Part shown: piece by piece, positions 4,376-20,820 of the stretch
How positions within the stretch are numbered: the first letter of the stretch is position 1
Layout of the letters: each line of letters begins with the position of its first letter
Source: Pseudomonadota bacterium
GTDB lineage: Bacteria; Pseudomonadota; Gammaproteobacteria; UBA5335
Length of the DNA stretch: 64,000 nt
Assembly: GCA_034189865.1 (NCBI GenBank)
Contig: JAXHTV010000013.1
Location: 1 to 64,000, forward strand
Direction of reading: 5' to 3'
The notes under the pieces: generated by a model
What the model saw: only the letters and a program-made list of their open reading frames with translations
Databases searched by the model: none
What the model was told of the DNA's origin: nothing
Program-made: the position numbers and the translations under genes

Positions 4376-4404
4376 TTGAAAGGGAAATGAGAATCATTTA
4401 CGAT
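4376..4404 (+). promoter_or_regulatory. Sigma70-type promoter of the siderophore operon
   Basis: TTGAAA at 4376-4381 is a 5/6 match to the -35 consensus. TACGAT at 4399-4404, a 4/6 match to -10, follows after exactly 17 bases. The decarboxylase ATG is at 4446 with GGGAG 5 bases before it, so a leader of about 35 bases is expected. The Fur box at 4383-4401 fills the spacer. Confidence 0.6.
4383..4401 (+). promoter_or_regulatory. Fur box
   Basis: The 19 bases centred on GAGAATCATT match the classical 19-bp Fur consensus at 14 positions. They sit inside the promoter spacer, where bound Fur would block RNA polymerase. A second, poorer Fur-like half (ATTCTCATCA, 4412-4421) follows within 30 bases, which would fit extended Fur binding. 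Repression by iron-loaded Fur is the expected control for a siderophore operon. Confidence 0.7.
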
Positions 4405-4445: not shown

Positions 4446-6029
4446 ATGTTGTTGGGATCTTCGCTCACGGACCTTGACGCCTCCGACTCTTCCGGAAGTG
4501 ATGCTTATCCGGATGCCACCCATGGCTTGTTAAACACCGACCATACAGCGGCATTCGAACAGGCAGTCGCGTGCGCGGCAAGTTTGCTTTCCGGCCGCCT
4601 GAAAAGCGTGGAGCAGCCATTTTCCGGGATCTTGCCGGCCGAGCTCGCCGAGTACTTTAACGCTGTCGACCTGGATGAACCCTTGCATTCGTTCAACGAG
4701 TCCTTGAACGAGCTGCAGTCGCTCTATCTCAACGATGCGGTGTATTTTCACCATCCGCGTTACATGGCGCACCTCAACTGCCCGATCGCCTACCCGGCGG
4801 TGGCGGCGGAGCTCATCACCGCGGCGGTTAACTCGTCGGTCGATACCTGGGATCAGAGCGCTGGGGCCACGCTGATCGAGCAGCATCTCATCGATTGGAC
4901 CGCGCGGCGGATCGGCTTTGCTGGTGAACGGGCGGACGGGGTATTCACCAGCGGCGGGACGCAGTCCAATCTGATGGCTCTGCTGTTGGCACGCGACAAT
5001 TACTGCTTGGTGCAGCTCAACGGCTACAGCATCCAACGGCAAGGCCTGCCAACCGAGGCGGCGGGCTTTCGGATTCTGGCCTCCCGAATTGCCCATTTCA
5101 GCCTGCAAAAGGCAGCTGCCATTCTCGGCCTTGGGGCGGATGCCATCGTGCCGGTGGATTGCGATGCCGACTACCGCATGTCGCCGGTGGCGCTGAAGAT
5201 GGCCATCGAGCAATGCCGTCGGGGCGGTCACACGCCGATTGCGGTCGTGGCAACGCTCGGCTCGACGGACTTCGGGAGTATCGACCCTATCGTCGAGTTG
5301 GCACCCATCTGCCGGCAAGCAGGCCTTTGGCTTCATGCCGATGCGGCCTACGGTTGCGGGCTGCTGGTCTCACGTAAAGCCCGTGAGCTGCTGGCCGGCA
5401 TCGAGCAGGCGGATTCGGTCACGGTGGATTTCCACAAGTCTTTCCTGCAGCCGGTGAGCTGCAGTGCATTCATGGTAAGAGAACGCGCTCACCTAGCCTG
5501 CCTGACCTACCACGCCGACTACCTCAATCCGCTCAGCCAGACGCAAGAGAAGACGCCGAACCTGGTCTGCAAGAGCCTTCAGACCACGCGCCGCTTCGAT
5601 GCGCTGAAGTTGTGGATGACCTTGCGGGTGCTGGGGCCGGACAAGCTGGGCGAGGCGTTCGAGCACGTCATGGCGCTGGCCCAGGCAGCGTACGACCTGT
5701 TGGCGCAGGATTCGGATTTCGAGGTCCTGCATCGGCCTGCACTGAGCACCCTGGTCTTCCGTTACCGGCCGGCAGGCGTAACCGATTCCGAGCAGCTGGA
5801 CCAACTCAACACCGCGATTCGCAAAGCGTTGATGCGGGAGGGTCGGGCCCTGGTCGCGGCCACCCGCGAGGCGGGTCGGTGTTATCTCAAATTCACCTTG
5901 CTCAATCCGGCCACCACGCTGGCCGACGTGCGGGCGGTTTTGGATGGTTTGCGCACGCACGGCCAGGCGTTGCTGGACACCGCCTCATCCGCCCCGCAAG
6001 CCGACGCTCGGCTTTTTGGAGTCAGTTGA
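4446..6029 (+). CDS. dfoJ: PLP-dependent decarboxylase of siderophore pathway (DfoJ/DesA-like)
   Basis: A 527-residue group II pyridoxal-phosphate decarboxylase. The Schiff-base lysine is K331 in VDFHKSFLQPVS, and the cofactor-pairing aspartate is D299 in HADAAYG. The SGGTQSN loop near residue 169 is also typical. This subfamily contains lysine decarboxylases DesA/DfoJ and 2,4-diaminobutyrate decarboxylases of siderophore clusters. It probably makes cadaverine (or putrescine) from lysine (or ornithine) as the diamine that the next gene hydroxylates. The start is set by GGGAG 5 bases before ATG 4446. It is the first gene behind the Fur-controlled promoter, and its stop TGA is directly followed by the next ATG. 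Exact amine specificity is not readable here. Confidence 0.85.
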   Translation: MLLGSSLTDLDASDSSGSDAYPDATHGLLNTDHTAAFEQAVACAASLLSGRLKSVEQPFSGILPAELAEYFNAVDLDEPLHSFNESLNELQSLYLNDAVYFHHPRYMAHLNCPIAYPAVAAELITAAVNSSVDTWDQSAGATLIEQHLIDWTARRIGFAGERADGVFTSGGTQSNLMALLLARDNYCLVQLNGYSIQRQGLPTEAAGFRILASRIAHFSLQKAAAILGLGADAIVPVDCDADYRMSPVALKMAIEQCRRGGHTPIAVVATLGSTDFGSIDPIVELAPICRQAGLWLHADAAYGCGLLVSRKARELLAGIEQADSVTVDFHKSFLQPVSCSAFMVRERAHLACLTYHADYLNPLSQTQEKTPNLVCKSLQTTRRFDALKLWMTLRVLGPDKLGEAFEHVMALAQAAYDLLAQDSDFEVLHRPALSTLVFRYRPAGVTDSEQLDQLNTAIRKALMREGRALVAATREAGRCYLKFTLLNPATTLADVRAVLDGLRTHGQALLDTASSAPQADARLFGVS

Positions 6030-7394
6030 ATGAACACGCGGGGAAAAATCCATGACTTTCTGGCGGTCGGCGTGGGGCCGTTCAATCTCAGCCTGGCCTG
6101 CCTGACTTCGACCATCGAGGGACTGGACGGAATCTTCGTCGACCAGAATCCCGGCTTCGATTGGCATCCCGGTGTGATGTTCGATGACGCGCATCTGCAA
6201 ACGCCGTTTCTGTCCGATCTGGTGACCCTCGCCGACCCCACCCATCCGCTGAGTTTTCTCAATTACATCAAGCGCCAGGGCAGGATCTACTCATTCTATA
6301 TACGGGAGGACTTTTTCCTTCTGCGGCGCGAATACAACCGCTACTGCCAGTGGGCGGCAGCTCAGTTGGATAGCATTCGCTGGAATACCCGCGTGGAAGG
6401 GATCCGATACGACGAGGCCGGCGCCTGTTACGAGGTGATCACGCGTCATGTGCACGATGGCGCAATCAGCACCTATCGGGCGGCACGGTTGGTGCTCGGC
6501 ACCGGTCCGGCGCCCTGGTGGCCGTCATGCTGTGATGGCGGAATTCAACAAGCCGCCAACGTGCACCACTCAAGCGAGTATCTGAACCAACACGAGATGC
6601 TCAAGACGTTGGGTGCCTTGACGGTGGTGGGCAGTGGCCAGAGCGCGGCGGAGATCTTTGTCGATCTGTTGCAGGGCATCGAGCGCCACCCCTATACCCT
6701 GAACTGGGTGACGCGATCGCCGCGCTTCGTGCCGTTGGAGTACACCAAGCTCACCCTGGAGATGACCTCACCCGAGTATGTGCGCTATTTCCATGCCCTG
6801 CCCGGCCGAACCCGCGATGCACTGATCGCCAGTCAGACGAATTTATACAAGGGCATCAATGGTTCGCTGATCAACGACATCCACGAGCTGCTTTACCAGA
6901 AACGATTGATCATGGATGAGCGGGGCGAGGATTTTGGTCAGCGGGTGCGGCTGTACACCAACAGTGAATTACGCGATGTGGTGCGTGTCAGCAGCGCGCT
7001 CGAACTGTCGCTGCATCATGCCGAGCAATGCCGCGATTACGTGCTGAACACCGACGGCCTGATTGTGGCGACCGGGTATCGTTATACCCCGCCGGCCTTC
7101 CTGGCCGGCATCGCCTCACGCATCCGTTTCGATGCCGCGGGCCGCTTTGCCGTGGCCGGGAACTACACCATCGATCGGGCCGGCGAGGAGATCTTCGTGC
7201 AAAACGCCGAGCTGCACACCCACGGGTTCGTCACCCCGGATCTCGGAATGGCGTGTTACCGCAACTCGCACATCATCAAGGCGATGACCGGCGTGGCACA
7301 TTACCCCGTCGAAGAGCGTATCGCCTTTCAGGAATTCGGCGTACCGGGCGATCTGGCCACTGCCTCGCGCCCGCTCCGGCAGGTGGCATCATGA
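6030..7394 (+). CDS. dfoA: Diamine/lysine/ornithine N-monooxygenase (DfoA/DesB/IucD family)
   Basis: A 454-residue flavin-dependent N-hydroxylating monooxygenase. The FAD motif GVGPFN is at residues 14-19, the NADPH motif GSGQSAAE at 201-208, and the family ATGY motif at 347-350. NAELHTHGF near residue 395 is also typical of the siderophore N-hydroxylase family. It should hydroxylate the terminal amine of the diamine using NADPH and O2, the step that creates the future hydroxamate. The ATG touches the decarboxylase stop, with a GGAG inside the end of that gene. The gene ends in an ATGA overlap with the transporter, so it belongs to the same operon. Confidence 0.88.
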   Translation: MNTRGKIHDFLAVGVGPFNLSLACLTSTIEGLDGIFVDQNPGFDWHPGVMFDDAHLQTPFLSDLVTLADPTHPLSFLNYIKRQGRIYSFYIREDFFLLRREYNRYCQWAAAQLDSIRWNTRVEGIRYDEAGACYEVITRHVHDGAISTYRAARLVLGTGPAPWWPSCCDGGIQQAANVHHSSEYLNQHEMLKTLGALTVVGSGQSAAEIFVDLLQGIERHPYTLNWVTRSPRFVPLEYTKLTLEMTSPEYVRYFHALPGRTRDALIASQTNLYKGINGSLINDIHELLYQKRLIMDERGEDFGQRVRLYTNSELRDVVRVSSALELSLHHAEQCRDYVLNTDGLIVATGYRYTPPAFLAGIASRIRFDAAGRFAVAGNYTIDRAGEEIFVQNAELHTHGFVTPDLGMACYRNSHIIKAMTGVAHYPVEERIAFQEFGVPGDLATASRPLRQVAS

Positions 7395-8578
7395 GCCTCA
7401 AGCACGGCTTGATCCTGCTGACGTGGGTCTCGGTCGTCGCCGACACCATGCTATTGCCTTTCTACCCTCAGTTCTTTGCCCGGGAGTTTGGCAACACCAG
7501 CCCTGAGCACGTGGGATTCTACATCGCCGCGTGTTGTTTCACGGTGATGATGAGCTTGCCCCTATGGGCCAAGGTGGCGCGGCGCATCAACGAGTTCCAT
7601 CTCTGGGTCTTGACGCAAATCGCTGCGGGAACACTTGGGATCGCCGCTTACTTCACCGAATCGTTGCCGCACTTCTGGGTCATCACCCAAGCCATGCTCG
7701 TGTTCAAGGCCAGCTATTTGCTGATCTACCCACTGGTGATGCGATTGGAGGAAAAGGACCAGCATCTGGGCGTGGCCGGGCTGTTCTCGGTGCTGATGCA
7801 CTTCGGCGCCATCGGCGGCGCGCTGGTCGGCGGCGCCATCCTCGAGTTTGCCGAGCCGCGCAGCATCTATCTCATTATGGCCGGTACCGATGTGCTGCAG
7901 GTGCTCGTCTGTGCACTCATTATCCGCAGCCGACACATCCCTGTGCTCCAGCCGCCTCCGGATATATCGGCTGTCGAGGAGGCGAGCGAAACCCGCGGTA
8001 ATCCACTGATGCTGCAACTGGGTGTGATCAGCCTGCTGTTTTATCTCAGCGCGTTCATGATGCGGCCGTTTTTCTCCCGCTATTGGGAGTCGGTTGCCCT
8101 GAGCGGCAGCGAGCTCCTGGCCGGCGTGATCTATTCCATTCCAGCGTGGGTGGCCTTGGCCGGGCTTTGGTTGAACAGTCGCTTCGGGCGCGCGCGCAAC
8201 AGTTTTGCTGTGGTCTTTCAGGCGTTGATCTTCGCCATGATCGGCGCGGCGATTCAAAGCCTGCCGCACCCGGTGGCCATTGTGCTGGGCCGGGTGGTGT
8301 TCGGCTGGGCGTTATTCCAGGGCGCCGTGCGGTTGGAGGTGTTGGTGTTCGAGCTGAGCAACCGTGCTCACTACGCCCTCGACTTCAGCAAGATCCACAT
8401 TTTTCAGAACGTCGGCGTGCTCGTGGCGTCCTTCGCGGTTGGATCGGTGGTGTCGAGCTACAACCTGCAGATGCCCTTCGTTGTCGCCCTGATCGGTTTT
8501 GCGCTGACCACCGTCGTTTTTGTTGTGCTATTCGGGAGTCGCCTGTGGCCATCACTCGCACGCATGCCCTCGGCCTGA
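7391..8578 (+). CDS. MFS transporter, probable siderophore exporter (DfoS-like)
   Basis: A 395-residue polytopic protein with about 12 hydrophobic segments in two halves, separated by a hydrophilic loop near residues 185-205 (PDISAVEEASETRG). This is the layout of a major facilitator. Its place between the N-hydroxylase (4-base ATGA overlap) and the synthetase (34-base overlap) argues for export of the finished siderophore, as proposed for MFS genes of dfo and other NIS clusters. Export rather than import is inferred from context; the receptor and PepSY genes downstream supply the uptake side. No periplasmic binding protein or ABC importer is encoded nearby. Confidence 0.8.
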   Translation: MSLKHGLILLTWVSVVADTMLLPFYPQFFAREFGNTSPEHVGFYIAACCFTVMMSLPLWAKVARRINEFHLWVLTQIAAGTLGIAAYFTESLPHFWVITQAMLVFKASYLLIYPLVMRLEEKDQHLGVAGLFSVLMHFGAIGGALVGGAILEFAEPRSIYLIMAGTDVLQVLVCALIIRSRHIPVLQPPPDISAVEEASETRGNPLMLQLGVISLLFYLSAFMMRPFFSRYWESVALSGSELLAGVIYSIPAWVALAGLWLNSRFGRARNSFAVVFQALIFAMIGAAIQSLPHPVAIVLGRVVFGWALFQGAVRLEVLVFELSNRAHYALDFSKIHIFQNVGVLVASFAVGSVVSSYNLQMPFVVALIGFALTTVVFVVLFGSRLWPSLARMPSA

Positions 8579-10971
8579 ATGCGCCGCAGTTGCTTCGCAG
8601 GACCGATCCCCTCGGTGAATTCGCGTTGCGTCGGTTGGCGCCGGAGGGCGATGCGGAGCAGGTCCAACGCTGGACCCGTGAGCCCTATGCCCGTTATTGG
8701 GGCATGTTGGATTCATCGGTGTCCGACGTGGCGGCGTTCTACGCCCAGTTGAATACCAAGCCGGGCTGTGCCGCCTACCTCGGCCTGTTCAATGGCGAGC
8801 CGAGCTTTCTGGTGGAGCGCTACGATCCGGCGACTGACCCCGTGGGCGGTTGTTACTGCGTGCGGCCCGGCGATGTCGGCATGCATCTTCTCATCGCACC
8901 GACCGATGAGCCACTGCACGGATTCAGTTTGGCGGTGATGCGTACCGTCATGGCTTACCTGTTCAGCCGGCCGGAGACGCGCCGGGTGGTGGTGGAGCCG
9001 GACTGGCGAAACCACAAGATTCACGCGTTGAATCGACGGGTCGGATTCGTCCATCGGCAAGTGGTGCAAATGGGGGAAAAAACCGCCTATCTGGCTTTTT
9101 GTACGCGGCGCCAGTACGACGCGGCGCTGCGTTGGCAAACCGCTCTGTCAGATACGCATGTACCTGTTTCCGCAGCCGAAAGCGTGCAAGCGGTGGGCGG
9201 TCCGCAATGGCAGGCCGTAAACCGCGCCCTGGTCCGTAAGTGTTTGGCGGAGTTTTCCCACGAGCGGATTATTCAACCGGTACTTGCCGCGCGGCAGGGG
9301 GAGTGGGGACGCTATGGATTGACCAGCCCGTGCGGAGCGGTTGCGTATGCCTTCAAGGCGCGGCGGTTGCCGCTGGATCATTGGGATATTGATCCGGCTT
9401 CCATCGAAAAATGGGTCCATGGACAGCCTGCGGCGCCGGATGCTGCCGAGTTCGTCGTGGAGTTTGCCGAGACGCTTGGGATCAAGCCACAGAATCTGCC
9501 GGTTTACGTCGAAGAGGTCGCGGCCACCGCGGCGGCGCGTGCGCGTAAATACCAGGCCTGCCCGTGGTCGGCCGAGGAACTGGCTGGTGCGGATTTCCAG
9601 ACCATCGAGACGGCCATGACCGAGGGCCATCCGGCGTTCATCGCCAACAGCGGGCGGATCGGCTTCGATGCCCAGGACATGCAGCGCTACGCGCCCGAGG
9701 CGGCATCCCCGGTGCAGCTCATCTGGTTGGCGGTTCACTGTAGTCGGGCGCGGTTTTCCGGAAGCCGGGATCTTGACTACCAACAATTGATGGACGAAGA
9801 GCTCGATATCACCACCCGTCGGCGCTTCGAGAAGCACCTGACGGATTCGGGTCGCGCACCCGAGGACTATCTTTGGATGCCCGTCCATCCCTGGCAGTGG
9901 GTCAATAAGCTCTCCCATCTGTTTGCGGGGGAGCTGGCCACGGGACATCTGGTGTATCTCGGGCGGAGTGACGACGCCTATCTGGCCCAGCAATCCATCC
10001 GAACGCTGTTTGATGTCAGCAATCCCGGTAAGCGCTACGTCAAGACGGCGCTTTCGGTGTTGAACATGGGGTTCACACGCGGTCTGTCGCCGGACTACAT
10101 GCAAACCAACCCCGCGGTCAACGATTGGGTGGCCAATCTGGTGGAAGAGGATCCCTACCTGCAGCAGCAAGGGTTTTGTGTGCTGCGGGAGGTTGCCGGT
10201 ATCGGCTACAGCCACCCGTTGTACGGCAAGGAGCCGCTGCGCGGCGGTCATCTGAACAAAACCTTGGCCGCCTTGTGGCGGGAAAGTCCGGTACACCGGC
10301 TCAGCGGCCATCAGCGCTTGATGACCATGGCGGCCTTGTTGCATGTGGATGCCGAAGGCGACGCGCTGCTACCGCAGCTGATTCGGCGCTCCGGGCGATC
10401 CATCGATGCCTGGCTGACGCGCTATTTTCGCGCCTACCTGACGCCGGTTCTGCATTGCTATTACCGCTACGGACTGGTGTTCATGCCCCATGGGGAAAAC
10501 GTGATCCTGGTGATTGAGGACGATGTGCCGGTGGGCGCGATCATGAAAGACATCGGTGAGGAAGTCTCGGTGCTCAATGGACGCACGCCGGTGCCCGGGA
10601 AAATCGCCCGCATCGCGGTCAAGATGCCCGAAGACAAAGAAACGTTGTCCATCTTTACTGATGTGTTCGACTGCTTTTTTCGGTATCTCAGTGCGATCTT
10701 GCTCGATCAGGCTGATTATCCGCCCGCTCGCTTTTGGGCCCGGGTGGCGGACTGCGTGATTGCCTACCAGCAGGCACACCCGCGAATGGCCGAGCGCTTT
10801 GCCGAACGGAATTTGTTCGCCGAGCGGTTCAAGTTGTCCTGTCTGAATCGTCTGCAACTGAGAAACAATCAGCAGCTGATCGATCTGGCCGATCCGTTCG
10901 AGGCGCTTTCCTTTGCCGGCCAGCTGGACAACCCCATTACGGCTTACCGTCCGAACCGGAGATCGACATGA
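8545..10971 (+). CDS. dfoC: Fused acyltransferase/NIS siderophore synthetase (DfoC-like)
   Basis: An 808-residue two-domain enzyme. Residues 20-190 are a GNAT-type N-acyltransferase of the IucB/DesC kind, with the signature EPDWRNHKIHALNRRVGF at 151-168. Residues 215-808 are an IucA/IucC (NRPS-independent) synthetase with GHPAFIANSGRIGF at 361-374, an HPWQW motif near 450 and a C-terminal FhuF-like segment with MPHGENVILV. The first domain should succinylate or acetylate the N-hydroxy diamine; the second uses ATP to condense and cyclise the units. The same fusion is known as DfoC in Erwinia desferrioxamine clusters. I chose GTG 8545 because GGGAG precedes it by 6 bases. The frame is open further upstream, but there it only shadows the transporter. 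Confidence 0.88.
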   Translation: MAITRTHALGLNAPQLLRRTDPLGEFALRRLAPEGDAEQVQRWTREPYARYWGMLDSSVSDVAAFYAQLNTKPGCAAYLGLFNGEPSFLVERYDPATDPVGGCYCVRPGDVGMHLLIAPTDEPLHGFSLAVMRTVMAYLFSRPETRRVVVEPDWRNHKIHALNRRVGFVHRQVVQMGEKTAYLAFCTRRQYDAALRWQTALSDTHVPVSAAESVQAVGGPQWQAVNRALVRKCLAEFSHERIIQPVLAARQGEWGRYGLTSPCGAVAYAFKARRLPLDHWDIDPASIEKWVHGQPAAPDAAEFVVEFAETLGIKPQNLPVYVEEVAATAAARARKYQACPWSAEELAGADFQTIETAMTEGHPAFIANSGRIGFDAQDMQRYAPEAASPVQLIWLAVHCSRARFSGSRDLDYQQLMDEELDITTRRRFEKHLTDSGRAPEDYLWMPVHPWQWVNKLSHLFAGELATGHLVYLGRSDDAYLAQQSIRTLFDVSNPGKRYVKTALSVLNMGFTRGLSPDYMQTNPAVNDWVANLVEEDPYLQQQGFCVLREVAGIGYSHPLYGKEPLRGGHLNKTLAALWRESPVHRLSGHQRLMTMAALLHVDAEGDALLPQLIRRSGRSIDAWLTRYFRAYLTPVLHCYYRYGLVFMPHGENVILVIEDDVPVGAIMKDIGEEVSVLNGRTPVPGKIARIAVKMPEDKETLSIFTDVFDCFFRYLSAILLDQADYPPARFWARVADCVIAYQQAHPRMAERFAERNLFAERFKLSCLNRLQLRNNQQLIDLADPFEALSFAGQLDNPITAYRPNRRST

Positions 10972-12137
10972 GTGTCACGCCCGATATACGGGGTTTCACG
11001 GCGACCGGACAGCCTGATCCGCTCACCGCCCACTCCGTAACCCCCGGCGTTTCCTCCCCCAGCGCGCGGGTGTTTGCCATTGATATGGCGCGGGGTGCGG
11101 CGGTGCTTTTTATGATCGCCGTCCACACCTTGTGGATGTTCGGAACCCGCGAGGCCCAAGTGGAATCCGGGTTCGGCCAGTGGGTCCATATTGCCGGCCA
11201 AGGCGCTTGTGCGTTTCTTATTACCATGGGATTTTCGTTCATGGTGGTGCGCGACCGGAGTCTGGGTCGCGCCCTGCGCCGTGGCGTGGTCATTTTGCTG
11301 GTGGCCTATGGCCTGAATACGCTGAAGTTCATCGTGCCCATTTACGTGTTCGGCACTATGCCCGAAGCGTTCATCGAGGCTTATGGCTGGCGGTCGCCAC
11401 TGACGCTAAATCAGGCGCTATACCTCGTGGCCACCGGCGACATCTTACCCATGGCCGGTATCTCGTTCGTCCTGATCGGTTTGGTACGCCACTGGGTGTC
11501 GAACAAGTACGGGGTATTGGCCCTCGCCTTCGTCGCGGTGGGGTTCTCCGCGTTGGTTCGCGGAACCCGTATCGGGCACCCGGTGGCGGATTACTGCCTG
11601 GATCTGCTCTGGGGTACGGAGTGGAACGTATATTTCCCGGTGTTTCCCTGGATCGCCAACATTTTGGTGGGCATGTTCCTGGGTATGCATTACCTGGAGA
11701 AGGGTCGCGATGAGCAGGCGTTGTTTCGGGCGGCGGGAATTCTCGGGCCGATCCTGTTGATCGGCGGCGGCGCGATCACCCTCACGGATTGGGCATACCA
11801 CTTTAACGATTTCTTCCACACCGGACCCGGTGGGGCGGTGTATCTCATCGGCGCCGGGCTGTGTGTGTTCTACCTCGGCGCCAGGTTTGTCGCCACGCCC
11901 TTTCGGGACCGGCAATGGTTTCGCGTTTCCCTGACCTACCTGAGCGCCCATGTCACCACCCTCTACGTCGTGCAGTGGACGCTGATCTGCTGGTTCATGG
12001 GGCTGATTGGCTATCAGACCCTGGGGGTCTGGCAAGTTGTGGGGATGATGCCGGTGATGGTTGTGGCCACCTTGGGTGTGGAGTGGATGCTACGCCGGGC
12101 GGTTGGGCAGTTGCGGCGGCAACAGCTGAGCGCGTGA
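10968..12137 (+). CDS. Polytopic membrane protein, DUF1624/HGSNAT-like acyltransferase family
   Basis: A 389-residue protein with a hydrophilic N terminus of about 33 residues and roughly ten membrane segments. The first segment reads RVFAIDMARGAAVLFMIAVH, the pattern of DUF1624/heparan-alpha-glucosaminide N-acetyltransferase-like and related membrane acyltransferases. H53 sits where the catalytic histidine of HGSNAT lies. Its ATG overlaps the synthetase stop (ATGA), so it is made with the siderophore enzymes. It may transfer an acyl group to the siderophore at the membrane or help its export. Neither is shown by sequence, and the family assignment itself is moderate. It is not one of the standard dfo genes I know. 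Confidence 0.6.
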   Translation: MSVTPDIRGFTATGQPDPLTAHSVTPGVSSPSARVFAIDMARGAAVLFMIAVHTLWMFGTREAQVESGFGQWVHIAGQGACAFLITMGFSFMVVRDRSLGRALRRGVVILLVAYGLNTLKFIVPIYVFGTMPEAFIEAYGWRSPLTLNQALYLVATGDILPMAGISFVLIGLVRHWVSNKYGVLALAFVAVGFSALVRGTRIGHPVADYCLDLLWGTEWNVYFPVFPWIANILVGMFLGMHYLEKGRDEQALFRAAGILGPILLIGGGAITLTDWAYHFNDFFHTGPGGAVYLIGAGLCVFYLGARFVATPFRDRQWFRVSLTYLSAHVTTLYVVQWTLICWFMGLIGYQTLGVWQVVGMMPVMVVATLGVEWMLRRAVGQLRRQQLSA

Positions 12138-12241: not shown

Positions 12242-14431
12242 ATGTTTGGGTTACAAATTCTAAGGCGCTTAATCACGCTATTCGGGGTCGTGTTATTGGT
12301 CTTTCCGGGGGTAGCCGCGGCTGAAGGGACGGAGCCCCGAGAGCTGCCGACCTTGGTCGTGGAAAGCGAAACCTACCGCAGCACCGCGACCAAATCGGCA
12401 TTGGAACCGGAGGAGACGCCGGGCAGTATTACAGTGATTGACAGCGAGGCACTAGAGCGGCGCGGCGGCGACTCGGTGAGCGAAGCGCTGCGCTATACCC
12501 CCGGGGTGACGCCGGAGTTACGTGGTGGCGGCATTACCCGGCTGGATCAGTACACGATCCGTGGCTTTCAGAACTACCAAACGGCTTACGACGGCTTGTT
12601 GCTGCTTTTCAACGGCTGGAATTTGCAGCCGCAGATTGATTTGGCGGCGGTGGAACGGGTCGAGGTCTTCAAGGGGCCGGCGTCGGTTCTTTACGGCAAC
12701 CAGCCGCCCGGCGGGCTGGTAAATCTGTTGGCCAAACAACCGAGTGTCGATCGCTACAACGAACTGCGCTTTGCGCTGGGTAGTCGGAATCTGGTCGAAG
12801 TGCAAGGCGAGTTTACCGGGCAAGTGGCCGACTCCCCGATTTCCTACAGTGTGGTTGCCTTGGGCCGCCAACGCGACGGCCAAGCGATTACCTCGGAGGA
12901 AGAGCGCTATCTGTTCGCGCCGACGGTGAATTGGCAGCTGACGCCCGATACCTCGTTGAACCTGAATTTGTACTACCAGGATGATCCCTCGGCCGGTATC
13001 TACAATTCGTTACCGGCCAAGGGCACGGTGTATTCGAATCCCAACGGACGGCTCGAGCCGGACGCGTATGCGGGGGATGCCAACTACAATACCTTCGACC
13101 GGCAGATCATCATGCCGGGCTATCAGTTAGCCCATCGTTTCGGTCAGCGCTGGTCGTTTTTGCAGAACGCGCGTTTGCTCAAGGGCGATCTGTACCAGGA
13201 GAATACTTACAATACTGGCCTGGAAGCCGATGGCCGGACCTTGAACCGACGGGCGTATCGTACCGAAGAAACCAGCGAAGGGATCACCATCGACAACCAG
13301 CTGTCGGGATGGATCGATTTCGCCGGAATGCAACATCATCTGTTGCTGGGGCTGGATTATCTCAAGCTGGAATCCGGCATTATTTATCAGGATACGATCG
13401 CCGCGCCCCTCGACCTCTACGATCCGAATAACCGGGCCATTGATCCGGATGCATTGCGCTATGACATCGGGCTGGCCGATGTGCGTTCCATCGGCGATCT
13501 AAGGGCGTTGCTGGATTTCCGCGGGCGACAACTGAGTAGTGATTTCGATCTGGAATACGAGCAGACCGGGGTTTATCTGCAAGATCAGGTTCGTCTGGGC
13601 CGTTGGATACTGATCGCCGGTGGTCGTTACGATCGCTACGAGCAACGTGAGGACGGAAGGAAATACGGCTTCGAGGTACGAGACACCTTCGAGCAGACCG
13701 ACTTCAACGGCCGGGTGGGCATGCTCTACCAGTTCGACAACGGCTTTTCGCCCTACGTCAGTTATTCCGAGAGCTTCGAAGCCCTGGCCGGAACCGATCG
13801 CAACGGCAACAAGTTCGTGCCGGCGGAGGCGGCTCAGTGGGAAGCCGGGGTTAAGTACAGCTCCTTCGACTATCGGCATACCGTGACCCTAAGCGCCTTC
13901 AATATCACAAAGGAAAATGACCTCACCCGCGACCCGCAGGGCGGGCCATATGACCTGATTCAGGCCGGTGAGATTCGCTCCCGTGGCGTGGAGCTGGAGG
14001 CGTTCAGTGAGCCGCTTCATAATTTGCGTTTGTCGTTGAATGCGACGCTGCTCGACGCCGAGATCACTAGAGACAACCGTGGGCTGGCGGGTAAGACACC
14101 GGTTTGGGTCATCGAAGAGTCGGCATCGTTGTGGGCCAACTACGCCTTTGATGTCGGACCCTGGGCGGGTCTTGATGTGGGTGCAGGTTTGCGCTACGCC
14201 GGCAAGACGCAGTTGGATTCGTTGAATAGCGATACTGTGCCGTCCCGAACACTGGTGGACACGAGTGTGCTCTATGATCTCGGGCAGCTACATCCTCGCC
14301 TGACATCGATGACCGCGACTTTGACCGCGGCCAATGTATTCGATGAGACCTATTACACCTGTTTCGATGCCAACAATTGCTGGTTCGGCGAGGAGCGCAT
14401 TTACGAGGCCGGGTTGCGATACGTATTTTGA
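12242..14431 (+). CDS. TonB-dependent siderophore receptor
   Basis: A 729-residue outer-membrane receptor. A signal peptide ends near residue 27 (GVAAA), and the TonB-box region ELPTLVVE follows. The plug domain runs to about residue 165, with TPGSITVIDSEALERR and VEVFKGPASVLYGNQPPGG. A 22-strand-type barrel then ends in the outer-membrane C-terminal signal YVF. It is of the FhuA/FoxR/FecA kind without a visible N-terminal signalling domain, and no sigma/anti-sigma pair is adjacent. Lying 104 bases after the synthetase-linked membrane gene, it probably imports the ferric hydroxamate made by this locus. No separate Fur box is visible in that gap, so it likely depends on the upstream promoter. 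Confidence 0.9.
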   Translation: MFGLQILRRLITLFGVVLLVFPGVAAAEGTEPRELPTLVVESETYRSTATKSALEPEETPGSITVIDSEALERRGGDSVSEALRYTPGVTPELRGGGITRLDQYTIRGFQNYQTAYDGLLLLFNGWNLQPQIDLAAVERVEVFKGPASVLYGNQPPGGLVNLLAKQPSVDRYNELRFALGSRNLVEVQGEFTGQVADSPISYSVVALGRQRDGQAITSEEERYLFAPTVNWQLTPDTSLNLNLYYQDDPSAGIYNSLPAKGTVYSNPNGRLEPDAYAGDANYNTFDRQIIMPGYQLAHRFGQRWSFLQNARLLKGDLYQENTYNTGLEADGRTLNRRAYRTEETSEGITIDNQLSGWIDFAGMQHHLLLGLDYLKLESGIIYQDTIAAPLDLYDPNNRAIDPDALRYDIGLADVRSIGDLRALLDFRGRQLSSDFDLEYEQTGVYLQDQVRLGRWILIAGGRYDRYEQREDGRKYGFEVRDTFEQTDFNGRVGMLYQFDNGFSPYVSYSESFEALAGTDRNGNKFVPAEAAQWEAGVKYSSFDYRHTVTLSAFNITKENDLTRDPQGGPYDLIQAGEIRSRGVELEAFSEPLHNLRLSLNATLLDAEITRDNRGLAGKTPVWVIEESASLWANYAFDVGPWAGLDVGAGLRYAGKTQLDSLNSDTVPSRTLVDTSVLYDLGQLHPRLTSMTATLTAANVFDETYYTCFDANNCWFGEERIYEAGLRYVF

Positions 14432-14491: not shown

Positions 14492-15040
14492 ATGATGACA
14501 GGATGGATTGCGCTGGCGACTGACGCCTCAGGCGTCGCCCTATTGTATAGCGCCTGGTCGGCGAAGGGCCGTTCGCGGCGGCGGTTGGCTATTGGGGGTT
14601 GGTTGTTGGTTGCGACCTCATTCGCGGCGTGGGCCGGGATTAGCGGTTGGGAGTACGCGGCGGTCTACGTTTGTGTTGCCACTGCCGTTTTCGCTTGGGC
14701 CGTGGTCTTTTTTCGACGTCAATCCAAGCCATCGGCGGTTAATCACCGCCCGCGCGATCGTGTGCAATGGCCGGGCGGGACTAGAATCCGCCGGGTGGCG
14801 GCTCGGCTGATCGTGTTTGGTCCCCTCGCTTTCCTGTCGAGTGCCACCGCCGGGTTGGTGCTGGTTGGGTTCTTGCCGGGTGATCCGGCCGACCGGCTTG
14901 CCCTCGGCAGCTTCGGCTTTTTGATCGGTTGGGCGTTATGGGGCGTTTGGGTGGCCGCTGCGGAACGTCTGCGCGCACCCGCCTTGGCGGCGACCGGTGT
15001 CATTGCCGCTAATGTCGCCCTGCTGACATTCGTTCCATAG
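14492..15040 (+). CDS. Small integral membrane protein of iron-uptake locus
   Basis: A 182-residue protein with five likely membrane helices and a basic loop around residues 74-100. I do not recognise a named family. It lies 60 bases after the receptor gene and 2 bases before the PepSY gene, so it is very likely translated with both. In such loci, small membrane proteins of this size often accompany PepSY proteins in handling ferric siderophores at the inner membrane. That is inference from position. The start may be either ATG 14492 or the adjacent ATG 14495. Confidence 0.65.
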   Translation: MMTGWIALATDASGVALLYSAWSAKGRSRRRLAIGGWLLVATSFAAWAGISGWEYAAVYVCVATAVFAWAVVFFRRQSKPSAVNHRPRDRVQWPGGTRIRRVAARLIVFGPLAFLSSATAGLVLVGFLPGDPADRLALGSFGFLIGWALWGVWVAAAERLRAPALAATGVIAANVALLTFVP

Positions 15041-15042
15041 CC

Positions 15043-16464
15043 ATGGGCCGGCGAATTTCACCGGCGACCGTTCGCCGCTCCCTTTCGGCGCACTCAGGAA
15101 TCGGATTGGTCGTCGGTGCTCTGATGTATCTGATTTGTCTGACCGGCACACTGGTGGTGTTTTTCGAAGAGTTCGAGCGTTGGGAGCAACCTCAAGTCAC
15201 CGAAAACACCGATTATTCCGGATCGCAAATCGATGCGGCAATTGCTAACTTCCTCAAGCAATCCGCTTCGCTACCTGAGACCGTCTACGTTGTGTTGCCG
15301 TCGGTTGCCATGCCGCGCTTGCACCTATCTGCGGGCGACGAGGAGTGGTTCGTGGACGCCGACGGTACGCTGGGGATACGCTCTGAAGCGCGCTGGACGC
15401 GGATGTTGCAATCCTTGCATATCCAGCTCCATCTCCCCACGGTTCCCGGTGTGATTTTCGTGGGTGCATTGGGCGTTTTCCTCTGCAGCTTGATTTTTTC
15501 CGGGCTGTTGGCCCATCCGACCATCGTCCGTGATGCGTTCCGGCTCCGTACCGGAGGTGCGGGGCGTCTGGCGAAGGTGGATCTCCACAACCGTCTCAGC
15601 GTCTGGGGCTTGCCGTTCCACTTGATGATCGCACTGACCGGTGCCTTTCTGGGTTTGGTTAGTCTGTTTTACGCGGGCGTTGCGGAGACTTTTCACGACG
15701 GTGATCGCGAGCAAGTTTTCGCCCAAATGTACGGGTCAGACCCGGTGGTGTTTGTGCAGGAAGCGGTCTCGCCGGATGTGGATTCGGCATTGCGGTCGCT
15801 GGCGCTCGTGGACCCGAAGGCTGAGCCGATGTATGTCGCCCTGATGCATCCCGGCACGCGCCGGCAGTATGTGGAGATTGCCGCCCGCGTTCCCCGAAGA
15901 CTGATTTATTCGGAGATTTACCGTTTCACGTCGGCGGGCGAATACATGAATCGTCAGGCGCTGTCAGACGGGCCGCGTGGACGCCAGGTTGCCTACTCGG
16001 TTTATCGCTTGCACTTCGGGAACTTCGCCGGTCTATGGGTGAAGCTGCTTTACGGATTGATGGGATTGGCGTTGACGGCGATATGCGTGACCGGGGTCAA
16101 TATCTGGTTGGCCAAGCGCGCCTATCGCAGCGCGGTCAACGATCTGTGGGCAGGGTTTGTCTGGGGCGCACCGTTGGCCTTGTCGGTGGCCGCGTCAGGG
16201 GCGCTGCTTGGTGTCACGCCGTTGCCGGTTTTCGCACTGGGTCTTTTCACGGCCTGTTTGTTGGGTGTGATCCTACAAGACGAACGGAAAACCGCGAGGT
16301 GGCTGGTCTGGGCCTTAGCGGGCGGCTTGGCCGCCGTGGCCGTGATTCATCTGGCCCGATTCGGTATCCAAACGCAGACCGGGGCGACCGGTTGGGTTAA
16401 TGGCACGCTAATCGCAGTTGCGCTGGTTGCGGCTGTCCTGGGAGCCGGGTTACGCGGACGCTAA
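15043..16464 (+). CDS. PepSY-associated TM helix protein, probable ferric-siderophore reductase/uptake
   Basis: A 473-residue PepSY-TM protein. The first helix contains the family start pattern HSGIGLVVGALMYLICLTGT. A PepSY-type periplasmic domain lies between helices 1 and 2 (about residues 50-130). Helix pairs follow, with DLHNRLSVWGLPFHLMIALT near residue 185, where histidines could bind haem. Extra helices at the C terminus make it longer than the minimal family. FoxB, PiuB and related PepSY proteins act in release or reduction of iron from siderophores at the inner membrane. Its place after the receptor fits that role. A strong terminator palindrome follows at 16502. Confidence 0.82.
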   Translation: MGRRISPATVRRSLSAHSGIGLVVGALMYLICLTGTLVVFFEEFERWEQPQVTENTDYSGSQIDAAIANFLKQSASLPETVYVVLPSVAMPRLHLSAGDEEWFVDADGTLGIRSEARWTRMLQSLHIQLHLPTVPGVIFVGALGVFLCSLIFSGLLAHPTIVRDAFRLRTGGAGRLAKVDLHNRLSVWGLPFHLMIALTGAFLGLVSLFYAGVAETFHDGDREQVFAQMYGSDPVVFVQEAVSPDVDSALRSLALVDPKAEPMYVALMHPGTRRQYVEIAARVPRRLIYSEIYRFTSAGEYMNRQALSDGPRGRQVAYSVYRLHFGNFAGLWVKLLYGLMGLALTAICVTGVNIWLAKRAYRSAVNDLWAGFVWGAPLALSVAASGALLGVTPLPVFALGLFTACLLGVILQDERKTARWLVWALAGGLAAVAVIHLARFGIQTQTGATGWVNGTLIAVALVAAVLGAGLRGR

Positions 16465-17066: not shown

Positions 17067-18944
17067 TTAGATGCGGGAAGCGGCTTGTTGAGCGGAATCA
17101 GCGAGGGATTGGATTTCCTGCCAGTATCGGTCGAATTCCTTTGAGCCATCGGCGGAGTAATTGAGGTTTTTCCATAGCCCGGTCATCCGCACGAAAAAGT
17201 CGCGGGCCGTTGCTTTATCGGCGAAGCGGTAGTCGCGAGTGAGAAGCTCATAAAGGCAATTGAACGATTTGCGTTGGCGTTTCAAGGGAACGGAAGCATC
17301 GACCGGATCGAAGGCGTCTTGCTGCAGATAGACCATATCGAGCATGAGGCTTTTCTGGTAGGTCACGAAGTCCTCATTGGAAACGCCCTCCTCGCCGGTT
17401 ACCTGCATCATTTGTAGGATGCTTTCTCCTCGGCGCAGTAAGTCCTGCATGTGCGAGACTTTTTCGGTCCAATCGGAACCCATTTCCTGTCGATACCAGG
17501 GGCGGAGCTGTTGCAAATAGCGGGACCAGGAGATCAGCGGGTCCACAGCGGGGTAGAATCGTTTGTAGGCGCGCTCGGCGCTGAGTCCCAGAAAGGTCTT
17601 GACGGTGTTCAGAGTCGACTGCGTCACGGGTTCTTCGAAGTTCCCGCCGGCTGGTGAGACGGTGCCGATCATGGTCAAACTGCCCGATTTCCCGTCGGCC
17701 GTCGTCAGTACGCCCGCGCGTTCGTAAATGCTGCGGATGGCTGAATCCAGGTAGGCAGGAAAGGCTTCCTCGCCGGGAATTTCCTCCAATCGGCCTGAGG
17801 TCTCCCGCATGGCCTGGGCCCAGCGCGAGGTCGAATCGGCGATCAGCAGCACCTCGTAACCCATTTGCCGATAGTATTCGCCCAGCGTCACGCCGGTATA
17901 GATGGATGCTTCCCGCGCCGCCACGGGCATGGACGAGGTATTACAGATGATGATGGTCCGATCCATCAGTGAGCCACCACTTTTCGGATCGACCATTTGC
18001 GGGTATTCCTGGATGGTTTCCACCACCTCACCGGCCCGTTCGCCGCAGGCCACGATAATCACCACATCGACGCTGGCAAAGCGGGAAATCAGGCTTTGCA
18101 GGACCGTTTTTCCGGCCCCGAAAGGCCCGGGAATACAGGCTGTACCACCCCGTGCCACGGGGAAAAACGTGTCGATCAGCCTTAAGGACGTGATCAGCGG
18201 TTCCTGAGGGTAGATTCGTTGGGCTCGGCGGGCATCAAGTAGCGGCCCGGATAAAGGCCGCCGCACCGGCCAACGCTGAGCCATGGTAATGGCGCTTTCC
18301 CGTCCTTGGCTGTCTTGTGCTCGGGCGATCACCGTGTCGATGGTAAAACTGCCTTCCTGTATCCACGCGATCTCGACCGCATCTGCTTGGTTGAAGGGCA
18401 GCATGATTTTATGGACAAAACGGCCTTCCTGAACCGTTCCCAGCACATCGCCGCCGTACATTGTGTCCCCTACCCGGGCCCGGGCGGTGAACGACCACTT
18501 TTTTTGTTCGTCCAGCGCGGGACTCTCCACGCCCCGCGGCAGGAAGGCGCCGTAGCCCGCGGCGAGTCCCGCAAGCGGATTTTGTAGTCCATCGTAGACC
18601 TGTCCCAGTAATCCGGGACCCAGGGAGACGGAAAGCATCTCGCCGGTTTGCACTACCGGGTCGCCAATGCCCACGCCGGCCGTATCCTCGAACACTTGAA
18701 CGTCAGCGACGCGACCCCGGACGCGAAGTGTTTCGGCCTTCAGCCGCTCTCCACGGTCACGTTTTTCGTCATCGGCAAAGGGGCAGATCAGCACCATCTC
18801 ATTTTTCATTAAAGGCGCTAAGCGACCGTCGAGCTGTTGTGCTTCGATGGTGACGATATCGTCGCGCACGCCGACGACTTTGGCCGGTGGTGAGTCCAGG
18901 GCCGGATCGCCGAAATTCGATTTCTTGCGGTCAGTTGCGTTCAT
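17067..18944 (-). CDS. ntpA: V-type ATP synthase/ATPase subunit A (catalytic)
   Basis: The 625-residue catalytic subunit of a V/A-type rotary ATPase. The Walker A loop GPFGAGKT is at residues 273-280, and the catalytic glutamate is in CGERAGE at about E302. The long non-homologous insertion before the P-loop (roughly residues 115-190) distinguishes A from B. Six A/B subunits form the cytoplasmic head. It is the last gene of a seven-gene operon, starting 18 bases after the DUF2764 gene. In related operons A is followed at once by B and D, but here those genes lead the operon instead. I found no clear terminator in the 186 bases after it. Confidence 0.95.
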   Translation of the reverse strand: MNATDRKKSNFGDPALDSPPAKVVGVRDDIVTIEAQQLDGRLAPLMKNEMVLICPFADDEKRDRGERLKAETLRVRGRVADVQVFEDTAGVGIGDPVVQTGEMLSVSLGPGLLGQVYDGLQNPLAGLAAGYGAFLPRGVESPALDEQKKWSFTARARVGDTMYGGDVLGTVQEGRFVHKIMLPFNQADAVEIAWIQEGSFTIDTVIARAQDSQGRESAITMAQRWPVRRPLSGPLLDARRAQRIYPQEPLITSLRLIDTFFPVARGGTACIPGPFGAGKTVLQSLISRFASVDVVIIVACGERAGEVVETIQEYPQMVDPKSGGSLMDRTIIICNTSSMPVAAREASIYTGVTLGEYYRQMGYEVLLIADSTSRWAQAMRETSGRLEEIPGEEAFPAYLDSAIRSIYERAGVLTTADGKSGSLTMIGTVSPAGGNFEEPVTQSTLNTVKTFLGLSAERAYKRFYPAVDPLISWSRYLQQLRPWYRQEMGSDWTEKVSHMQDLLRRGESILQMMQVTGEEGVSNEDFVTYQKSLMLDMVYLQQDAFDPVDASVPLKRQRKSFNCLYELLTRDYRFADKATARDFFVRMTGLWKNLNYSADGSKEFDRYWQEIQSLADSAQQAASRI

Positions 18945-18962
18945 GTTATCCTCAGCCGCCTC

Positions 18963-19652
18963 TCAGCCGGTCGCCGGCACCGTTTGTGCCGATTCCATCG
19001 CGTGCTCAAGCATGTGGCCGAATCGTTTTCGGGCCGCGTTATGGTCGTGAGTGGCGGCACGGGCGACGACGCCCCATCGCAAGACATAGATCACCACCGC
19101 CTCGAAGTCGAACGGGTGGCCGACGGACAGTTGTCCCATCAATCGCCAATTGAGCCGCAATAACATTTTTTCGATGCCCAGCGCATCGCCTTCCGAGATC
19201 ATCCGATTGGCTTCCGGAATCCACCGAAATACGCCGGCCAGATTAAAATCCGGGTGTTGCCAATGGGTCACGATGTGGCGGTTCCAACGTCCGCAACCCC
19301 ACACCTTGTCCATATTGGGCGGTCGATCGCCCCGTCGGCGGCGGCGTAGGGCCGCCATGACGGTACGAACTTCCAAGCGCCACAGCACGATCTCGTAAAT
19401 CAATGAGTTCTCAAGTGTCTGGAGCAGGCGTTTCGCCTGACGTACCAGCTTTTCGTCTGTACGGTGCATGGGAAGATCGTGCCATTGGACGATTTTTTGA
19501 ATGTCCGCCATGGTGGCGGCATCGTCTGGCAGCAGCATGTTGAGCCGTTGATCCAGCTTGACCCGTGAAATGGGGACGCGGCTGCCGGTGAAAGGCGGTG
19601 GCAGCTTCGGCAGGCTGGATATCAAGGTGTAGTAGGGTGCCAAGCGGTTCAA
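18963..19652 (-). CDS. DUF2764 protein of V-type ATPase operon (subunit C-like position)
   Basis: A 229-residue protein whose N terminus (YYTLISSLPKLPPPF at residues 7-21) matches the opening of DUF2764 proteins. These stand between subunits E and A in V-ATPase operons of chlamydiae, spirochaetes and Bacteroidetes, and are thought to replace subunit C, which links the rotor and Vo ring to the head. The start is a TTG at 19652 that overlaps the stop of subunit E (TTGA), and there is no ATG before the conserved opening. The E-DUF2764-A order is kept here. The assignment rests on the start motif, size and context. Confidence 0.75.
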   Translation of the reverse strand: MNRLAPYYTLISSLPKLPPPFTGSRVPISRVKLDQRLNMLLPDDAATMADIQKIVQWHDLPMHRTDEKLVRQAKRLLQTLENSLIYEIVLWRLEVRTVMAALRRRRRGDRPPNMDKVWGCGRWNRHIVTHWQHPDFNLAGVFRWIPEANRMISEGDALGIEKMLLRLNWRLMGQLSVGHPFDFEAVVIYVLRWGVVARAATHDHNAARKRFGHMLEHAMESAQTVPATG

Positions 19653-20362
19653 TGGACGATACCTTCCAGTAGCGCCCGGAAGCGGGGCTGCAGATGTTGC
19701 AGCAACAGCTCGCTCACGCCCTGATCGGTCAGGTCGAGTTCGACATTCTGTTCCACCAGGCGGACCTTAATACCGATTTGCCCGGCTGGCCCTAACGCCA
19801 GGGTCAAGCCGTTTCGTAATGACTCACCGGCGGTGGCCAACACGAACTGGCTCAACGGACCTTCTTTGATCTCCGCGGGACGGCTGCGCAGCTCTTCCAG
19901 GCCGACCGTGTCCCGGGGCAAAATCAGTTCCACGGAACCTTCGGATTCAGGCGTAATTTGGTCCGCGACTCGCCGGACGATTTCTATGATCATATCCTTA
20001 AGGACCGCTTCGTCTTGCAGTTGCTCAGAAACCAGCCGGGCGACTTCATCGGTGAAGTGGGTGGTCAACGCGGATTTGGTTTGCAGCACGGTATCTCGGG
20101 CGGCCACCTTGAGTGCTTCCTGGCCGGCCAGTTTGAGTCGTTCCGCTTCTGCTCTGGCCTCGGCGATGTGTTTGTCGGCCTCCATCTGAGCTTGCTCAAG
20201 CAGCCAATCGGCTCGGCTTTGGGCGTCGGCGATGAGTTTTTCCGCCGCCGCTTTGCCTTTTTCCAGCCCCTCGTCCCGGAGCTTCTCGATCAAAGCCTCA
20301 ACGCCAGAGGCCGTGGGTGAAGAAACCGAAGACGTCTCGGAGCGATCCGCCGTTTTACTCAT
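19649..20362 (-). CDS. ntpE: V-type ATPase subunit E (peripheral stalk)
   Basis: A 237-residue protein. The first 110 residues form a charged, alanine- and glutamate-rich coiled coil (KGKAAAEKLIADAQSRADWL). A mixed alpha/beta C-terminal domain then binds the head, as in subunit E of V/A-ATPases. It forms the stator that keeps the A/B hexamer from turning. GAGGAG lies 7 bases before ATG 20362; a GTG one codon upstream is possible. The gene starts 11 bases after subunit K. No separate subunit G/H gene is visible, so the partner of the stalk coiled coil is missing or elsewhere. Confidence 0.85.
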   Translation of the reverse strand: MSKTADRSETSSVSSPTASGVEALIEKLRDEGLEKGKAAAEKLIADAQSRADWLLEQAQMEADKHIAEARAEAERLKLAGQEALKVAARDTVLQTKSALTTHFTDEVARLVSEQLQDEAVLKDMIIEIVRRVADQITPESEGSVELILPRDTVGLEELRSRPAEIKEGPLSQFVLATAGESLRNGLTLALGPAGQIGIKVRLVEQNVELDLTDQGVSELLLQHLQPRFRALLEGIVH

Positions 20363-20373
20363 CACTTCGCTCC

Positions 20374-20820
20374 TCAGCTGGGAATGCCGGCGCTAATGAC
20401 CAGGGCGAAAATGAACGCGAAAACCGCGAAGCCTTCAATAATGGCCGCGGGCGCCAGTGACAGGCCGAATACCTCCGGTTTGTCTTTGGACACATTGATC
20501 GACGAAGCGCAGCATTGTCCCTGGCGAACACCGCTGACCATCAACGCCAGACCCACCAGCACGCCGATACCGAAAATGCCCGGGGCGGCCTCTACGGTGA
20601 TGTCCCGGTTCAGAGTGAACATCACTACGATGCCGAAAATAATCTGGGACGAGGGCATGGCGGAAACGCCGACATAACGTCCATAGCCGCTTTCAGTTTC
20701 CAGCATGGCGCCGATCGCCGCCTGCCCGGCGATGCCGCAGCCGATCATGCTGCCGATGGCGCCCAGGGCCATCGGTGCGTAGACACCCAGCCAACCGAGC
20801 GCAATGACCAGCTCGTTCAC
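20374..20820 (-). CDS. ntpK: V-type ATPase subunit K (rotor ring proteolipid)
   Basis: A 148-residue proteolipid with four membrane helices, i.e. two fused hairpins as in V-type rings. The ion-carrying glutamate is E129 in helix 4 (APAAIIEGFAVF); the first hairpin has Q59 (PSSQI) at the equivalent place. S58, Q59, Q100 and E129 fall where T64, Q65, Q110 and E139 bind Na+ in Enterococcus NtpK, with the same 29-residue Q-to-E spacing. This suggests Na+ rather than H+ coupling (inference). The GTG start at 20818-20820 overlaps the subunit I stop (GTGA); the longer upstream frame is only a shadow. Confidence 0.9.
   Translation of the reverse strand: MNELVIALGWLGVYAPMALGAIGSMIGCGIAGQAAIGAMLETESGYGRYVGVSAMPSSQIIFGIVVMFTLNRDITVEAAPGIFGIGVLVGLALMVSGVRQGQCCASSINVSKDKPEVFGLSLAPAAIIEGFAVFAFIFALVISAGIPS

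Follow-up and report, generated by a model that had tools for sequence, protein, structure and literature searches.

A conserved HGSNAT/AT3-superfamily membrane acyltransferase in desferrioxamine-type siderophore operons and its possible role in siderophore tailoring

A gene for a membrane acyltransferase of the HGSNAT/AT3 (TmAT) superfamily accompanies one subset of desferrioxamine-type siderophore operons, a conserved setting that is new for this known superfamily of enzymes. The gene lies at 10968-12137 (plus strand) in a gammaproteobacterial sequence of the lineage UBA5335 (GCA_034189865.1, contig JAXHTV010000013.1, positions 1 to 64,000). This whole 64,000-nt stretch is called the window, and all feature coordinates refer to it. 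The gene belongs to a siderophore operon, its product has the fold and motif of the superfamily, and gene and operon co-occur across distant lineages. We propose, with confidence that is evenly balanced, that the protein is a siderophore-tailoring transmembrane acyltransferase whose substrate would be an open-chain siderophore, modified on the periplasmic side, in the likeliest case by N-acetylation of a terminal amine.

Co-occurrence of the gene with siderophore operons

A profile built from five sequences of the acyltransferase and of no other operon gene, which detects close relatives only, was scanned against a genome collection of 84,980 species and returned 32 loci. At 30 of these 32 loci a siderophore operon lies in the flanks of the gene. 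At one of the two exceptions (L027, Pseudobacteriovorax) the gene is ∼19 kb from a two-synthetase operon on the same contig; the other (L043) is a 3.5-kb contig from a genome that carries the synthetase elsewhere. The 30 loci, together with the synthetases of the two remaining genomes, rule out a chance neighbour. Conservation in other dfo loci had been set beforehand, in the initial annotation of this DNA, as a check on its reading, and the check was positive, the gene being an accessory of one subset of desferrioxamine-type loci. Since the scan was limited to close relatives, this describes a subfamily dedicated to siderophore operons, not all HGSNAT proteins. The hosts include gammaproteobacteria (Pseudoalteromonas, Alteromonas, Veronia and Marinibactrum), Bacteroidota (Aquimarina, Tenacibaculum and Fulvivirga), the myxobacterium Plesiocystis and Pseudobacteriovorax.

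Of the 369 genomes sampled from a class, two gave a full-strength match (at least 480 bits), and both carry the synthetase as well. Relatives outside siderophore loci are far off (26% identity; 117 bits versus at least 480): one is on an Aeromonas plasmid (L008) and another beside a phosphoglycerate-kinase-like open reading frame (ORF; L125). L008 and L123-L127 were excluded from the counts. The identities of acyltransferases and synthetases covary (Mantel r 0.45 over 37 pairs, with 0 of 5,000 permutations as high).

Neighbouring genes were compared at 77 loci, 58 with the gene and 19 without; near-identical and related loci were counted singly and so are not independent, and a locus with a gene remnant (L012) and one with the gene 19 kb off (L055) were scored as lacking it. 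A major facilitator superfamily (MFS) gene is present at 57 of the 58 loci with the acyltransferase versus 7 of the 19 without. A TIGR03950-type siderophore ferric reductase is a neighbour at 14 of the 58, in gammaproteobacteria; a reductase-like neighbour at L032, seen by clustering, was missed in this count.

Gene order varies among these operons. The acyltransferase gene stands between the MFS and synthetase genes at L006 and between two GNAT-synthetase genes in Plesiocystis pacifica (L034:8256-13551). In the two Pseudobacteriovorax loci (L055 and L027) a receptor gene and a PepSY-TM gene lie between two synthetase genes, with the acyltransferase ∼19 kb off. A gene that is weakly or clearly TIGR03950-like separates synthetase and acyltransferase at L007, L014, L015, L033, L036 and L050. 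In Pseudoalteromonas THAF3 and CuT4-3 (L006 and L007) the whole operon is on replicons of ∼0.8 Mb that are recorded as plasmids.

Family, fold and membrane topology

The ORF list and the sequence give the gene an ATG start and a product of 389 amino acids. The protein matches Pfam PF07786 HGSNAT_cat (E 1.3e-20, 74.3 bits, cut-off 22) and PF01757 Acyl_transf_3 (E 2.3e-11, 43.7 bits, cut-off 31), both above the curated cut-offs; an NCBIfam search returned no family and a sequence search of the PDB no homologue. An AlphaFold model built with 22 sequences from the window and fetched loci has a predicted local distance difference test score (pLDDT) of 88.5 and a predicted template modelling score (pTM) of 0.86, and it shows the ten-helix core fold of HGSNAT and OafB. 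Among the top 15 Foldseek rows, 13 are titled human HGSNAT and 2 'membrane proteins'; one of the latter, 8JKV, is HGSNAT according to a JBC 2025 paper (PMC12423673). With VIA-align the model aligns to human HGSNAT at Z 23.6 (300 residues, 3.7 Å, 13% identity) and next to the acyltransferase GWT1 at Z 16.7, all others, transporters included, reaching Z 5.5 at most. A transporter identity is rejected on these scores, those of the aligned transporters being far under that of HGSNAT. Profile matches and model thus agree in confirming the predicted protein as an HGSNAT/AT3-superfamily (TmAT) acyltransferase, and the initial description of an HGSNAT-like membrane acyltransferase inside a siderophore operon is borne out by Pfam, fold, motif and neighbours alike.

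Residue conservation was read from an alignment of 43 relatives, redundant or broken ones being omitted. R34, D39, H53, N117, G157, D158, Y222, F223, W228, H284, S326, T330, Y333, W337 and W342 are invariant; D39 is thus D in 43 of 43, and R42 is R in 41 and K in 2. D39 and R42 form the superfamily's DxxR, where the first core helix meets the cytosol. The predicted inside loops hold 13 K/R and the outside loops 4, and this charge bias assigns H53, D158 and H284 to the membrane's outer side. The product is a conserved, enzyme-like protein with putative acyltransferase activity.

The conserved histidine H53

The initial annotation had taken H53 for a catalytic-type histidine. Its conservation stood, with H in 43 of 43 relatives, but its equivalence did not. 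AT3 proteins have a DxxRx10H motif whose histidine replaces an important asparagine of HGSNAT (PMC12423673), and D39, R42 and H53 form this motif with the exact spacing of 10. In HGSNAT the corresponding residues are D244, R247 and the acetyl-CoA-binding N258, with the catalytic H269 eleven residues further on (PMC11357348). Motif spacing and HGSNAT numbering, rather than residue-level structural superposition, therefore place H53 at the N258 position, as an AT3-type histidine. At the spacing of H269, all 43 relatives have Gln or Trp as residue 64 (53+11), so the window protein lacks the catalytic histidine eleven residues past the asparagine that marks HGSNAT proper. H53 as the counterpart of H269 is ruled out by this spacing.

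The protein thus shares with human HGSNAT its fold, Pfam family, cytosolic DxxR and the presumed use of acyl-CoA across the membrane for a far-side acceptor, but has neither the luminal domain nor a clear H269 equivalent, and the acceptor of HGSNAT is a sugar amine. With the AT3 acyltransferases OafB and OatA (PF01757) it shares the DxxRx10H motif and a Pfam match above the cut-off; unlike them, it lacks a fused SGNH domain, and the acceptors known for AT3 enzymes are cell-wall polymers and sugars. Siderophores go unmentioned in the text of the three AT3/TmAT papers that were searched for the word.

The operon in the window

The acyltransferase gene overlaps the end of the synthetase gene (10971) by 4 bases and precedes the TonB receptor gene (start 12242), as had been noted at the outset. 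Genes for a decarboxylase, an N-monooxygenase, an MFS protein, a GNAT-IucA/IucC fusion, the acyltransferase and the receptor form a compact run on one strand. Decarboxylase, N-monooxygenase, GNAT and a DfoC/DesD/AlcC-type IucA/IucC synthetase occur together, which is the gene set of a desferrioxamine/bisucaberin-type (HSD) operon, whose product would be built of N-hydroxy-N-succinyl diamines.

The run begins with a pyridoxal-phosphate-dependent amino-acid decarboxylase (4446..6029, plus strand, as are all operon genes; PF00282, E 1.6e-65), which scores 400 bits against the diaminobutyrate (DABA) decarboxylase model NF052646, under that model's cut-off, and which by sequence is assigned the putative role of diamine supply. 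A lysine/ornithine-type N-monooxygenase (6030..7394; PF13434, E 8.6e-114) is likewise assigned diamine N-hydroxylation, and the MFS transporter (7391..8578; PF07690, E 6.3e-17) is the probable siderophore exporter. The fusion of a GNAT acyltransferase and an IucA/IucC siderophore synthetase (8545..10971; PF13523, PF04183, PF06276) combines GNAT, IucA/IucC and FhuF domains in Pfam and NCBIfam searches; its start codon is uncertain, GTG 8545 being chosen over the mechanical ORF from 8083. The best PDB match of its synthetase part is DfoC (5o7o, 683 bits), followed by DesD (620) and AlcC (613). The ten-helix acyltransferase (10968..12137) follows, then a FhuA/FoxA-like TonB-dependent siderophore receptor (12242..14431; TIGR01783, 355 bits, cut-off 223.5), whose closest models are FhuA and FoxA, each under its cut-off.

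Further downstream are genes for a small membrane protein of 182 amino acids (14492..15040, plus strand), assigned to no family and without a match in a Pfam search, and for a PepSY-TM protein (15043..16464, plus strand; PF03929, E 2.4e-53), which we take to be of a siderophore-reductase type such as FoxB. The PepSY-TM gene is also kept at L009, L010 and L012, where counterparts of the small protein (31-34% identity) likewise lie between it and the receptor gene. Upstream of the operon, a Fur-box-like sequence, AATGAGAATCATT (4386..4398, plus strand), was matched by eye, unscored, to the Fur consensus. A search for a second acyltransferase copy in the window's own genome found none. On the minus strand, 17067-20880 holds what by eye resembles a V/A-type ATPase gene set.

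Tenacibaculum operons and their siderophores

In the genus of Tenacibaculum agarivorans the gene is present in 21 of 21 genomes with a bisucaberin-B-type cluster (20 loci plus L042), immediately past the end of the cluster as published, and these loci have two GNATs. The published bsb cluster of T. mesophilum, which makes bisucaberin B, resembles these loci in its decarboxylase, monooxygenase, MFS protein and fusion of a GNAT with an NRPS-independent siderophore (NIS) synthetase, and as published it ends at bsbD2 (PMC6164419). One screening primer from that paper matches exactly in L106 and L117, and its partner has 1 mismatch. One or both of these loci, which are 95% identical, are therefore T. 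mesophilum or a close sister; L070 is ruled out as T. mesophilum by mismatches to the screening primers.

Whereas the published cluster stops at bsbD2, L106 and L117 run on past the synthetase into genes for a nitroreductase, the acyltransferase, a hormone-sensitive-lipase (HSL)-type lipase, a fatty-acid-hydroxylase-family protein and an RpfF-like crotonase. The gaps in L106:9924-14428 are of 1 to 11 bases (2, 7 and 11 at lipase, hydroxylase and crotonase). The bisucaberin B operon thus seemingly extends past bsbD2 in L106 and other Tenacibaculum loci (L103-L121). Across the 77-locus comparison, crotonase, hydroxylase and lipase genes are found at 24, 23 and 15 of the 58 loci with the acyltransferase and at none of the 19 without; none of these fatty-acid genes occurs in the window or in the gammaproteobacterial loci compared.

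Chains of the cis-2-enoyl kind are made by RpfF enzymes. Tenacibactin K, from another Tenacibaculum, carries such a chain, an iso-C15 tail, on a hydroxamate, attached to the N-hydroxy nitrogen of cadaverine (PMC8767563), and the RpfF-like crotonase could be the source of this tail. The tbs locus published for T. maritimum has the MFS and CD-duplication layout of the Tenacibaculum loci examined here (PMC5561996). Of the three families of desferrioxamine-like compounds that this species produces, one has its terminal amine N-acetylated (PMC12224167). By analogy, these two sets of products suggest a division of roles in Tenacibaculum in which the crotonase would shape the tail, a GNAT would attach it and the acyltransferase would acetylate the terminal amine.

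Operons without the gene

In synthetase-first samples at family and class level, an intact acyltransferase gene was found near the synthetase in 2 of 9, 7 of 10, 2 of 6 and 3 of 5 genomes, which rules out its presence in all dfo loci. The 2/9 sample includes one further genome with a remnant, and G057, which gave no match. One miss in the 7/10 sample (G666/L046) reaches a contig edge, yet the whole-genome search was without a match. None of G178, G278, G285, G556, G644, G666, G742, G750, G808, G870, G1055 and G1225 yielded a full-length copy when the whole genome was searched, G644 and G1225 giving weak partial matches of 20-25 bits only. The dfo/des/alc loci for desferrioxamine E and alcaligin share the core chemistry and synthetase family with the window, but the acyltransferase is absent from the sampled loci of Pantoea vagans, Acinetobacter venetianus, Streptomyces californicus, Caballeronia and Cupriavidus, and also from that of Pseudoalteromonas CF6-2. 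DfoC and AlcC are macrocycle makers, and the synthetase loci nearest to the solved DfoC (L058) and AlcC (L061) lack the gene.

On a synthetase tree built by a quick method from 81 of 82 rows (L035 was omitted as partial), the presence/absence label changes 10 times versus a shuffled mean of 21.6. The gene is therefore clustered on the tree, but was gained or lost several times. Grouping with BsbD2 is the mark of the clade III (linear-product) synthetases of Fujita 2018; the window synthetase stands with L009-L012, away from the Tenacibaculum D2 copies on this tree, which does not include BsbD2 itself. At L012 (genome G021) a remnant of the acyltransferase gene, at about 6454-6930 on the minus strand, keeps both ends and has lost most of the middle, H53 included.

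Discussion

In the proposed reaction, acyl-CoA would enter from the cytoplasm past R34/D39/R42, bringing its acyl group, at the outer face of the inner membrane, close to H53 and the invariant D158/H284. From there the group would pass to a hydroxamate siderophore of open-chain form, either while the operon's MFS protein exports it or afterwards; most likely, N-acetylation of a free terminal amine would yield a capped linear desferrioxamine-type siderophore. A siderophore as acceptor is plausible, as is either acetyl, as an amine cap, or a lipid as the group transferred; we infer the siderophore as acceptor, the amine as site, acetyl as group and the direction of transfer. Counting for this proposal are the Pfam matches and the fold, the AT3 motif and the invariant residues, the charge-based topology, the presence of the gene in the operon at 30 of 32 loci and in 21 of 21 Tenacibaculum genomes, the covariation of acyltransferase and synthetase identities, the co-occurrence with MFS genes (57/58 versus 7/19) and the absence of the gene from the loci nearest to DfoC and AlcC; the N-acetylated siderophores of T. 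maritimum are candidate products.

Several observations weigh against it. The only siderophore reported to be secreted by T. mesophilum is bisucaberin B, whose amine is free (PMC6270104), and L106 and L117, with their matches to the same group's screening primers, carry the gene just downstream despite that report; the gene may be silent, the product retained in the cell, the group removed by a hydrolase or the acceptor another. The product chemistry drawn on comes from Tenacibaculum and from no gene-bearing gammaproteobacterium, and in Bacteroidota operons the fatty-acid genes fit a lipid over acetyl. With 10 label changes, the idea that the gene marks one synthetase clade is ruled out; the window synthetase groups near a Streptomyces DesD-like one (L060) whose locus lacks the gene. 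G021 has a whole operon with only the remnant, so the acyltransferase step would be dispensable. The ferric reductase neighbour in gammaproteobacteria (14/58) would also fit a role in uptake.

Transfer of a fatty acyl chain instead of acetyl, by which the siderophore would become membrane-anchored and which the initial annotation had also raised, seems unlikely to us, although it gains from the Bacteroidota operons that run on into lipase, hydroxylase and crotonase genes absent from the 19 gene-less loci, from the iso-C15 chain of tenacibactin K and from GWT1, which has the same fold and was solved with palmitoyl-CoA bound. The tenacibactin K tail, however, sits at the N-hydroxy nitrogen, where a cytoplasmic GNAT would place it, and the lack of fatty-acid genes in the window, as in the gammaproteobacterial loci, makes a lipid tail less likely in the window's operon. 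Slightly less probable again is periplasmic acylation of the siderophore after iron release, for marking or recycling. Post-uptake acylation has been described for ferrichrome, a ferric reductase gene often adjoins the acyltransferase gene in gammaproteobacteria, and in the window the gene precedes those of the receptor and the PepSY-TM protein; yet it stays with the biosynthesis genes where no window-like receptor is near, as at most of the 77 loci, and at L006 it stands between the MFS and synthetase genes.

We give the lowest probability of all to the protein acylating, under iron control, some other molecule of the periplasm or cell surface, or being a siderophore transporter. AT3 proteins mostly modify surface sugars, and relatives do exist outside siderophore loci (L008 and L125), but these are the much more distant ones, the co-occurrence is with biosynthesis genes, and the aligned transporters come nowhere near the Z of HGSNAT. 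We accordingly prefer acetylation of the siderophore, with the balanced confidence stated above. Whether such finishing at the periplasmic side is a dedicated step for desferrioxamine-type siderophores in several distant lineages, joined in Bacteroidota with fatty-acid genes for cis-2-enoyl (tenacibactin) chains, is in our judgement an even call.

The open-access literature searched, outside which most subscription papers lie, holds no case of siderophore tailoring by an HGSNAT/AT3 membrane acyltransferase, in agreement with the initial remark that no such step was known for desferrioxamine loci. If the proposal is true, NIS siderophore biosynthesis would include an acylation step beyond the cytoplasm, open-chain siderophores that are capped would have a marker gene, and the published bisucaberin B cluster would be extended. 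The lipid-tailed and acetylated Tenacibaculum siderophores, for which no gene assignment was found in the literature searched, would become genetically accessible, and the superfamily would gain a small-molecule metal chelator as acceptor.

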